64,000 bases of DNA from Chloroflexota bacterium (GTDB taxonomy: Bacteria; Chloroflexota; Dehalococcoidia; Lucifugimonadales; UBA3495): positions 1-64,000 of the forward strand of contig JAPPCX010000054.1 in assembly GCA_028875655.1 (NCBI GenBank). Reading direction: 5' to 3'. The notes below the pieces were generated by a model. It ran no database searches, was not told the origin of the DNA, and worked only from the letters and a program-made list of their open reading frames with translations. A program made the position numbers and the translations under genes. Shown here one piece after another: positions 27,787-64,000 of the stretch. Numbering within the stretch: position 1 is the stretch's first letter; every line of letters starts with the position of its first letter.

Positions 27787-27837
27787 CCTGGATTCCCGCT
27801 TTCGCGGGAATGACGGGGGGTTAGCGGGAATGACGGG
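27787..27837. repeat. Dispersed palindromic repeat family A (ggattcccgctttcgcgggaatgacggg) plus an extra half-unit
   Basis: ctggattcccgctttcgcgggaatgacgggggg + gcgggaatgacggg. Confidence 0.9.
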
Positions 27838-27841
27838 AGGG

Positions 27842-28413: not shown

Positions 28414-28440
28414 CTGGATTCCCGCCTTCGCGGGAATGAC
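28414..28440. repeat. Dispersed palindromic repeat family A
   Basis: ctggattcccgccttcgcgggaatgac. Confidence 0.85.
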
Positions 28441-30057: not shown

Positions 30058-30085
30058 GATCCTTCGACAGGCTCAGGATGCGCGG
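30058..30085. repeat. Dispersed repeat family B (catccttcgacaagctcaggatgagcgg)
   Basis: gatccttcgacaggctcaggatgcgcgg. Confidence 0.85.
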
Positions 30086-30108: not shown

Positions 30109-30858
30109 TCAGCAGCCCCATTGGCCGGCGATTTCGCCGCCGAACTTGACGGTGTCGCCGGCCTCAATCCCGTGCATCGCTGCCTGGCCCGCGTTCAGCT
30201 CCAGGATGAAGCGCACCAGACCGGCCGACGGATACAGTTTCAGCCGGTCCCGGGGCGTGTCCAGCGGCGGATTTGGCACGTCCGCCGTTACCCCGGCCAC
30301 GATACAGTCCGCCCGGATCCAAACCATGTCCAGCGGAAAGTGCATGTTCGGCATCCAGAACGAGCGTGGCCCATCCGCTTCGTACACGAACAGCATTCCC
30401 TGATCCTCGAGCATCGACGGCCGGCCCGACAGCCCCTGCTGCCGTTCTGTCGGAGTAATCGCCAGGTCAACCGTATAGACGGTGTCTCCGATACGCAGCA
30501 GTGGAGCATCGGGCAGCGGCGTGTCGGTGGGCACGGGAGCCGGGGTCGCCGTGGGTGGTGTAGTGGTAATGGGGCCTACCGTGAGCGTCGTCAACATAGG
30601 GGTAGGCTGTGCGGTAGGCGTTGGAGGCGAATGCGTCGCCGTTGGCGCTGACGTCCGGCCCGCAGGTTGGGTAGGAGCAGCGGCCCCCGGAGTCTCTGAC
30701 AAGTTGCCGCACGACGTCATTGCCAACAGCAACACTGCCAGCAAAACCGTCGCCTTGAGCCACTGGATTCCCGCTTTCGCGGGAATGACAGGTGGACGGC
30801 GGGAATGACGGTCTTTCGGGCGGGAATGACGGCCCGCCGGAAGCAAATCAAGTTGCAT
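30109..30858 (-). CDS. DUF192 family lipoprotein
   Basis: C-terminal DUF192-like ITPTERQQGLSGR...FWMPNMHFPLDMVWI; signal plus lipobox-like LLAMTSC; N-terminus overlaps repeat family A. Confidence 0.75.
   Translation of the reverse strand: MQLDLLPAGRHSRPKDRHSRRPPVIPAKAGIQWLKATVLLAVLLLAMTSCGNLSETPGAAAPTQPAGRTSAPTATHSPPTPTAQPTPMLTTLTVGPITTTPPTATPAPVPTDTPLPDAPLLRIGDTVYTVDLAITPTERQQGLSGRPSMLEDQGMLFVYEADGPRSFWMPNMHFPLDMVWIRADCIVAGVTADVPNPPLDTPRDRLKLYPSAGLVRFILELNAGQAAMHGIEAGDTVKFGGEIAGQWGC
30762..30832. repeat. Family A repeat with two extra half-units
   Basis: ctggattcccgctttcgcgggaatgacaggtggacggcgggaatgacggtctttcgggcgggaatgacgg. Confidence 0.9.
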
Positions 30859-46821: not shown

Positions 46822-46850
46822 CTGGATTCCCGCTTTCGCGGGAATGACGG
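46822..46850. repeat. Dispersed palindromic repeat family A
   Basis: ctggattcccgctttcgcgggaatgacgg. Confidence 0.9.
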
Positions 46851-47742: not shown

Positions 47743-48543
47743 TCAACCGGGCCGGAGGCTTTGTCCCGAGGCGAGCTTCGCAAGCGCGTCGCTCACCGCT
47801 GCCGGCGAATCCAGCCGGTATTTGGCGCGGGTAGCGGAGCCGGCCGGGCCGACGAAGACACCGAAACCGCCGACGGCCTGCGCCGCCGCAAAAGCGTCTT
47901 CATCCGTGGCGTCGTCGCCGATGTAGATGGGAAATGCGCCGGGGGCCAGCCGGGAACGCACCAAGTCCAGCGCGCGGCCCTTGTCCCAGTCCACGGCAGG
48001 GCGCAACTCGATGGCCGCTTTGGCGGTGGAAGACCGGATCCGGCCAGCCGTGATTGCGGAGCCGGCGACGTCGTGGACGATTGACTCGACCCGGTGGTGG
48101 TACTGCGGCGGGACCCGGCGGTAGTGCACGGTCAGCGTCAGGGTCTTGTTTTCCACCTGGGCTTCCGGCACGTCGGACAGAGCGGACACAAGGCGGCTGG
48201 CAATTTCGGAAAAGGCAGGAATTGATGCCGCAGCGGCGGGATGCAAGTATTGCAGGTCAGGGCCGGAGATTTCCAGGCCGTGGTTGCCGGCGTACACCAG
48301 GCCGGGGACACCGACGCGGTGGGCCACGTCGTCCAGGGAACGGCCGCTGAGGATGCCGACGGTAGATCCGGGTTTTCGGCTCAGGGCTTCCAGCAGTTTG
48401 GAGTTGCCGGGGCGCAATACCGCGTCTTCGGGACGTGGCGCGATCTCCGAAAGGGTGCCGTCGAAATCGAGCAGGAGGAGGAGGGATGATTGAGTTGATA
48501 CATCCTTCGACAAGCTCAGGATGAGCGGGTCGGGGGGATTCAT
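47743..48543 (-). CDS. otsB: Trehalose-phosphatase
   Basis: LLLLDFDGTLSEIAPRPEDA; YIGDDATDEDAF. Confidence 0.9.
   Translation of the reverse strand: MNPPDPLILSLSKDVSTQSSLLLLLDFDGTLSEIAPRPEDAVLRPGNSKLLEALSRKPGSTVGILSGRSLDDVAHRVGVPGLVYAGNHGLEISGPDLQYLHPAAAASIPAFSEIASRLVSALSDVPEAQVENKTLTLTVHYRRVPPQYHHRVESIVHDVAGSAITAGRIRSSTAKAAIELRPAVDWDKGRALDLVRSRLAPGAFPIYIGDDATDEDAFAAAQAVGGFGVFVGPAGSATRAKYRLDSPAAVSDALAKLASGQSLRPG
48501..48528. repeat. Dispersed repeat family B
   Basis: catccttcgacaagctcaggatgagcgg, lying inside the 5' end of otsB. Confidence 0.9.
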
Positions 48544-58982: not shown

Positions 58983-59010
58983 CATCCTTCGACAAGCTCA
59001 GGACGAGCGG
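58983..59010. repeat. Dispersed repeat family B between rpsQ and rplN
   Basis: catccttcgacaagctcaggacgagcgg. Confidence 0.9.
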
Positions 59011-61749: not shown

Positions 61750-61799
61750 CTGGATTCCCGCTTTCGCGGGAATGACGGGAGTTGCGGTAATGACGGGAT
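61750..61799. repeat. Dispersed palindromic repeat family A between rplF and rplR
   Basis: ctggattcccgctttcgcgggaatgacgggagttgcggtaatgacggg. Confidence 0.9.
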
Positions 61800-61838
61800 T
61801 CCAAAGTTCCGAAGTACGGATTTGAGAGCGATCTAAAA

Positions 61839-63244: not shown

Positions 63245-63252
63245 TTGGAATC

Positions 63253-63295
63253 GTCTGAATCAGGATTTACGAGATTTTCGGATTTTTCAGGATTG
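63253..63295. repeat. Dispersed 'gaatcaggatttacgagattttcggatttttcaggatt' element between rpmD and rplO
   Basis: Internally repetitive (c/t)aggatt / ggattt units; resembles known interspersed elements. Confidence 0.55.
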
Positions 63296-63359
63296 GGTAT
63301 CTCCTCCTGCCGGGGGACTGGGTACAGGCAGCAGCTGACTTACGGAGCAAGACATAGCC

Positions 63360-63806
63360 ATGATGGAGCACGAAGTATCGCCACCAAAGGGCGCCCGCCG
63401 CAGCCGGAAACGGGTGGGCCGGGGCGACGCGGCCGGGGGCGGCAGCTATGCCGGGCGCGGCATGAAGGGTCAAAAGTCCCGGTCGGGCAAAAGCGTAAGG
63501 ATCGGTTTTGAAGGCGGTCAGCTGCCCTTGATTAAGGGACTGCCCATGAAGCGGGGATTCAACAACCGCTACAAGACCTACTACGCGCTGGTGAATTTGA
63601 GCACCCTTCAGGAGCGGTTTGAAGCCGGCACGACGGTGACTCCCGAACTGCTGCACGGCCTGGGCATCGTGCGGCGCACCAGTTTGCCCGTGAAAATAGT
63701 GAGCGACGGCGAGCTAGACCACGCATTGACCGTGAACGCGCACAAGTTCACGGCAGCGGCCCGGGCCAAGATTGAAGCGGCGGGCGGCTCCGCCGTAGAA
63801 ATCTAG
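63360..63806 (+). CDS. rplO: Ribosomal protein L15
   Basis: RKRVGRGDAAGGGSYAGRGMKGQKSRSG. Confidence 0.95.
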   Translation: MMEHEVSPPKGARRSRKRVGRGDAAGGGSYAGRGMKGQKSRSGKSVRIGFEGGQLPLIKGLPMKRGFNNRYKTYYALVNLSTLQERFEAGTTVTPELLHGLGIVRRTSLPVKIVSDGELDHALTVNAHKFTAAARAKIEAAGGSAVEI

Positions 63807-63831
63807 GCGGAACGGTTTAGTTATGGCAACG

Positions 63832-63888
63832 CCTGGATTCCTGCCCCGTATCGAGTACGGGGTGACGTTCTTTCGCAGGAATGACGGG
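63832..63888. repeat. Composite repeat: family A palindrome interrupted by a 'ccccgtatcgagtacggggtgac' element
   Basis: ggattcctgc|cccgtatcgagtacggggtgacgttc|tttcgcaggaatgacggg. Confidence 0.75.
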
Positions 63889-63936
63889 ACAAGCAAGAAT
63901 GCGGGATAATTTGACGACGGGCGAGTTACGGCGAGC

Positions 63937-64000
63937 ATGATCCAATCTGAGGTGCAGGGCGGCGGCAGATGGCCGCGACTGGTTCAGGCAGCGATTGACG
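63937..64000 (+). CDS. secY: Start of preprotein translocase SecY (truncated by window end)
   Basis: MIQSEVQGGGRWPRLVQAAID; spc operon position after rplO. Confidence 0.7.
   Translation, partial: MIQSEVQGGGRWPRLVQAAID

Follow-up and report, generated by a model that had tools for sequence, protein, structure and literature searches.

The spacer between rplO and secY in the DNA analysed here, a 64,000-nt stretch of a Chloroflexota genome (hereafter the window), contains a CGTC-tagged REP whose loop is occupied by a second palindrome, and this nested form is a dispersed repeat family of the genus, not a one-off. The arrangement is probably best explained as a stepwise mosaic, in which a MITE would have entered the spacer, a small module would have entered the loop of a REP, the composite would have dispersed without a recognisable Y1 transposase, and the arms of the outer stem would have been copied from one another.

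Anatomy of the rplO-secY Spacer

All features described here lie on the forward (+) strand. The upstream gene is rplO (63360-63806), recognised by its ORF and by full-length orthologues in genomes of the genus, and a MITE-like segment starts immediately 3' of its stop codon (63804-63806). This left flank (63807-63832; GCGGAACGGTTTAGTTATGGCAACGC) shares homology with an internal MITE segment, as seen in an alignment with 12 MITE copies of the relative G004 and with a remnant elsewhere in the genome from which the window derives (the source genome). The nested element itself spans 63837-63885 and begins, after a CTGG tail, with the 5' arm of the outer CGTC-1 REP (63837-63844; ATTCCTGC), which is of stem type T/A and is matched in the 3' arm. 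A 26-nt insert follows (63845-63870; CCCGTATCGAGTACGGGGTGACGTTC), which forms a hairpin itself (stem CCCCGTA/TACGGGG, loop TCGAG) and carries a TGACG tag; its boundary is ambiguous by one base, as CCCCGTA...GTT at 63844-63869 fits equally. Next come the residual loop of the outer REP (TTTC, 63871-63874), which is the commonest loop among simple copies, and the 3' arm with its tag (63875-63886), comprising the arm GCAGGAAT at 63875-63882 and GACG at 63883-63886, that is, CGTC on the opposite strand. Downstream are a second, decayed copy of the 3' half of the REP (63893-63909; GCAAGAATGCGGGATAA), a tandem duplication that is also found at other copies and has an intact analogue in the MITE copies L149 and L150, and a MITE right-end segment (63906-63918; ATAATTTGACGAC), part of the terminal inverted repeat and identical to the G004 MITE copies at 13 of 13 bases. 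The start of secY (ATGATCCAATCTGAG..., 63937-64000) is conserved with relatives.

The first-pass annotation had described an outer palindrome whose loop is broken by a 26-nt block forming a second palindrome, and the sequence is as it described; the element does lie in the span it proposed (63832-63888), whose start and end are a few bases too wide. The stretch can fold into a nested structure as DNA or RNA, with a predicted stability greater than that of shuffled sequences (z of about -2.4 to -2.5) and a predicted RNA fold of -24.5 kcal/mol. A different dispersed repeat (TCTGAATCAGGATTT...TTTTTCAGGATTGGG) occupies the rpmD-rplO spacer adjoining the nested site (63245-63300), and the same kind of repeat hosts the 26-bp module elsewhere.

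The Outer Repeat Family

CGTC-1 REPs are defined by a CGTC tag, a CCA tail, an 8-bp stem, and a 4-nt loop (Di Nocera et al., 2013, PMC3733652). By its sequence features, the outer element can be assigned to this family as a dRS3-like, CGTC-tagged REP. It has an unpaired CGTC tag, read here as GACG after the 3' arm, which is by far the commonest tail in the source-genome sample, and an 8-9 bp stem with A-T pairs at positions 1 and 2 and a CCA-like tail (ATTCCTGC/GCAGGAAT, with the tail CTGG on this strand). Simple copies have a loop of 4-5 nt; the nested copy has 30 nt between its 8-bp arms (the 26-nt insert plus TTTC), and it is because of this 30-nt loop with its own hairpin that we class it as a variant CGTC REP.

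A pattern search of the 3.45-Mb source genome returned 256 loose and 165 strict matches to the outer palindrome, with none for the reversed control. Five undisturbed copies of the outer REP lie in the window, where 0.34 would be expected by chance for the loose pattern: at 61750-61776 between rplF and rplR, at 28414-28440, at 46822-46848, and, with duplication of the 3' half, at 27788-27814 (one) and 30763-30789 (several). Tandem duplications of the REP 3' half (GCGGGAATGACGG..., about 17-21 bp) directly follow many copies, including those at 27819-27838, 30786-30830, and 61780-61800 and in L149 and L150. A separate 28-bp repeat (CATCCTTCGACAAGCTCAGGATGAGCGG) has three copies in the window (30058-30085, 48501-48528, and 58983-59010), one of them between rpsQ and rplN, and the ribosomal operon of the source genome thus holds at least four repeat insertions. 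Within the genus, the number of strict-pattern REPs ranges from 0 (G003, assembled as one contig) to 274 (G004), and the spread between G003 on the one hand and G004, G006, and the source genome on the other offers a natural contrast for tracing the mobiliser.

That mobiliser does not appear to be of the RAYT/TnpA-REP type, a link that the first-pass annotation had suggested checking. A profile search for the Y1 transposase (PF01797) found no match in any of 14 genus genomes including the source genome, mostly draft assemblies with three in a single contig, and its controls were positive. On this result we rejected a TnpA-REP/Y1 link. The tag here is also CGTC and not the GTAG tag of RAYT/TnpA-REP systems. 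The survey that named the CGTC REPs likewise found no transposase for them (PMC3733652).

Nested Composites in the Genus

The inner palindrome has 20 pattern matches in the source genome (control, 0), and the nested composites there, written A[B], number 9-10, all with identical junctions (reversed-pattern control, 0). With the strict pattern, 35 composites were found among the matches listed, in 7 of 14 genus genomes (reversed control, 0). The full collection comprises 46 distinct sites with the same junctions, nearly all from the Chloroflexota genus of the window; it was anchored on the inner hairpin, with the constant frame loosely required and the variable pair left free. The pattern search for the nested form returned none from 392 other genomes of the class, and within the family the inner module occurs in this genus and, beyond it, in just one genome of a different genus. 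A search of genome collections returned the same MAG group plus single records assigned elsewhere. The public records that carry the nested form are Chloroflexota or Dehalococcoidia MAGs and one labelled Binatia (L145), in which a composite with a T/A outer stem lies at 2161-2209 of a 454-kb contig of a Candidatus Binatia MAG that shares its sample code with a carrier Dehalococcoidia bin; this composite reflects either transfer between phyla or mis-binning. Judging by their sample codes, several of the carrier MAGs presumably come from sponges. A search of viral contigs for the nested form found none.

Chance juxtaposition or an assembly artefact, for which one could point to two composites at contig ends of the source assembly, is refuted by this recurrence, the same junctions being found in independent assemblies at dozens of sites away from contig ends while reversed-pattern controls gave zero, and its probability is negligible.

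The 26-bp Module and Its Other Hosts

The module (CCCCGTATCRAGTACGGGGTGACGTT) has the constant ends CCCC...GTT. It carries the CGTC tag, as TGACG after the inner stem, and lacks the A-T pairs at the stem base and the CCA tail of canonical CGTC REPs, the stem being CCCCGTA/TACGGGG with no tail inside the host loop; we therefore call it a CGTC-tagged module. With the same ends, it also occupies at least two unrelated repeats beside the outer REP: a GATTGC...GCAATGAC repeat (L215; junction GATTGCCGC|GCTTCGCTCGCAATGAC), of which empty copies exist, and AGAATCAGG...ATTTT repeats (L201, L269, and L271), which have empty relatives. Two-hairpin A[BC] forms, with a further 24-bp hairpin after the module, are present as well, as are A[C] derivatives, from which the first hairpin seems to have been deleted between CCCCGT direct repeats. 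A further nested type is seen in the GATTGCCAC...TCGCAATGAC repeat (L046, L150, L226, and L260), which has a CCCCGYATC..GGGG hairpin in its loop without the TGACG tag.

We suggest tentatively that the module may be among the smallest mobile elements known. It would target specifically the loops of other palindromic repeats, of at least three kinds, while these are folded as single-stranded hairpins, leave no target duplication, and be moved by something other than a Y1 transposase; the balance of our judgement lies against this reading. The corresponding account of the nested REPs is that some enzyme inserted a tiny mobile element site-specifically and repeatedly into hairpin loops, hitting each stem class separately. 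Such an account would fit the sameness of the module's ends across three or more kinds of host repeat, the identical junctions across C/G, G/C, and T/A outer stems, and the lack of target duplication, which is expected for insertion of a single-strand type, but it has no candidate enzyme, Y1 being absent from the 14 genomes. Moreover, module and stem variants occur in most combinations, which could equally well come from a single insertion followed by exchange of modules or switching of stems. All inserts in the A frame have one orientation, with none inverted, and this fits one insertion followed by amplification better than repeated insertion. Taken together, we consider repeated insertion possible but doubtful. 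If a single insertion was amplified, the matched stem changes must postdate it. One element with a reversed hairpin (L113) lies in a related frame.

A MITE Carrier and the Probable History of the Insertion

The relative G004 contains a MITE with the ends GGGCGTGTCGTCAAATT/AATTTGACGACACTCCC, TA on both sides, and a head-to-head pair of CGTC REPs. Its terminal inverted repeats, target duplication, and many short copies (13 by exact ends) are those of a MITE; family members are found at L149-L161 (e.g., also L112) and measure 154, 173, or 180 bp. In the 154-bp copies the REP on the right is simple; in the 180-bp copies, whose backbone is the same, it is nested, and the difference is exactly 26 bp. 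Among copies with the simple REP both the stem (T/A or G/C) and the loop (TTTC, TTCC, TTTT, or GAAA) vary. The empty and filled copies on one backbone, along with the same module in other repeats, support the proposal made in the first-pass annotation that one element had been inserted into another.

To either side of the composite, the sequence of the window locus matches this MITE (GCGGAACGGTTTAGTTATGGCAACGCC to the left, ATAATTTGACGAC to the right), and by this homology the rplO-secY copy is probably a remnant of a G004-type MITE. It retains only the internal segment, the right REP, and a portion of the right end; the left end and left REP are missing. At the start of contig 2 of the source genome is a second MITE remnant, whose REP is simple (L003). 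The rplO-secY spacer is 37-43 nt long and repeat-free in 12 of 13 congeneric genomes, including the closest relative (G008, with RplO 99% identical), so on the scale of the genus the insertion is recent; the spacer of G006 holds an unrelated pair of REPs. A search with the end sequences returned mostly G004 MITE copies and no autonomous parent. The one further match checked (L244, in the relative G007) showed no second end.

Matched Arms: Selection or Template Switching

The first-pass annotation had pointed to paired stem changes on both arms, and these are supported by the composites. In them, the outer variable pair is Watson-Crick at all 46 sites (C/G in 22, G/C in 20, and T/A in 4), compared with a mean of 19.6 after shuffling. 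Among 23 distinct sequences, changes on both sides are seen at the outer pair 6-41 and the inner pair 13-21, and the covariation score exceeds all 500 shuffles and all slid controls, although these tests are inflated by related sequences, the copies not being independent events.

When the check was extended to other copies, as the annotation had advised, the outcome was divided, with compensation at the variable pair and mostly one-armed decay elsewhere in the stem. In a sample of 86 simple copies from about 0.7 Mb of the source genome (reversed control, 3), 68 have a Watson-Crick variable pair (mean after shuffling, 38.3) and 18 of 36 departures at this pair are compensated; at the other seven stem pairs 4 of 44 departures are compensated and one-armed decay is common, a contrast that is indicative only since the copy definition permits two mismatches in those seven pairs and so undercounts compensated changes. 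A looser copy set with three mismatches was dropped as noisy (92 raw control matches), as were gene-context statistics from naive ORF calling, which placed spurious ORFs over 90% of the sequence.

The loop is reverse-complemented beside an unchanged tag in 12 of 112 intact copies, and copies that share one MITE backbone have GAAA or TTTC loops. When the template switches between inverted repeats, the arms are homogenised without selection and the spacer is inverted (PMC8604942; PMC8794818). As template switching produces this combination, we infer from the patterns that template switching is more likely than selection on the hairpin to have matched the arms.

Selection on structure had been the annotation's other proposal. 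In the version considered here, the folded RNA or DNA would act in the rplO-secY messenger or in the chromosome, for example in transcript stabilisation or attenuation, and the nested hairpin would be kept for that reason. The paired changes in both stems, the stable predicted RNA fold, and the position between co-oriented operon genes would suit such a role, but the concentration of compensation at one pair and the loop inversions point to template switching, from which the same covariation is expected (PMC8604942; PMC8794818). One-armed decay outside the variable pair, the repeat-free spacers of 12 of 13 congeneric genomes, and the presence of composites at dozens of unrelated sites also argue against it. 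There is no T run after the stem, so by sequence it is not an intrinsic terminator. We therefore consider selection an improbable explanation of the nested hairpin.

A Proposed Stepwise Mosaic

In the stepwise mosaic that we favour, a MITE (about 154 bp when undisturbed in the relative, with inverted ends GGGCGTGTCGTCAAATT and TA at both ends) carrying a CGTC REP pair would first have entered the rplO-secY spacer, as homology suggests, and lost its left part. In the second step, the discrete 26-bp module CCCCGTATCRAGTACGGGGTGACGTT would have settled in the loop of the right-side REP, lying between the 5' arm and the loop CTTTC and leaving no target duplication. The composite A[B] would then have dispersed in the genus, some copies travelling within the MITE and others as stand-alone repeats, along a route for which no recognisable Y1 transposase is required. 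Finally, the outer arms may have been kept complementary by mutual copying when a single strand folds (hairpin template switching), a step to which selection on the hairpin may also contribute. The first two steps are supported by comparison and the third by distribution; the fourth we infer. On this view a transcribed spacer tolerates the element, which would be mobile or parasitic DNA. In principle the order could be reversed, with the nested form ancestral and the simple copies of the MITE derived by deletion, but simple REPs have a much wider distribution.

The genus studied here bears on how CGTC REPs spread: it contains them by the hundred, and the Y1 search detected no enzyme in its 14 genomes. 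It also has a subfamily of nested REPs whose junctions are fixed, and a MITE whose REP position can be empty, filled, or stem-switched. Two questions are testable in this material. One is whether a palindrome can grow by taking in others; the second is whether paired stem changes, which are usually taken to prove selection on RNA structure, arise instead when one arm is copied from the other.

Comparison with Known Repeats

Our literature search, which covered mainly open-access papers, found no paper on a nested REP/MITE, and a search with the letters of the repeat matched only primers. The closest relatives of the outer element are the CGTC-1 repeats dRS3 of Neisseria and RPE-6 of Rickettsia, with which it shares CGTC at one end, a CCA-type tail, an 8-bp stem opening with AT pairs, simple copies with a 4-nt loop, stem variants with paired changes, and the lack of a known dedicated transposase; it differs in the nested form, which has 30 nt including a second hairpin between its 8-bp arms in place of 4-5 nt (PMC3733652). 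The host is also different, as the survey recorded CGTC repeats in five phyla and gave Chloroflexi for GTAG repeats only, whereas the host here belongs to Chloroflexota (PMC3733652). The G004 carrier resembles MITEs with a TA target in being short, with inverted ends, TA on both sides, and many copies, whereas the window copy lacks the left end.

A hairpin inside a REP loop is also known from GTAG-3 and GTAG-14 REPs, whose long self-complementary loops reach 27 bp in Bradyrhizobium; those, however, belong to the RAYT-associated GTAG superfamily and were described as loop types, whereas the inner part here is a module found in other repeats, with an empty/filled pair (PMC3733652). Likewise, GTAG-23 in T. 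roseum, GTAG-15 dimers in A. variabilis, and CGTC-1 dimers in H. neapolitanus are palindromic repeats seated within another palindrome; in those cases the outer palindrome is not a tagged REP, whereas here both outer and inner parts are TGACG/CGTC-tagged (PMC3733652).
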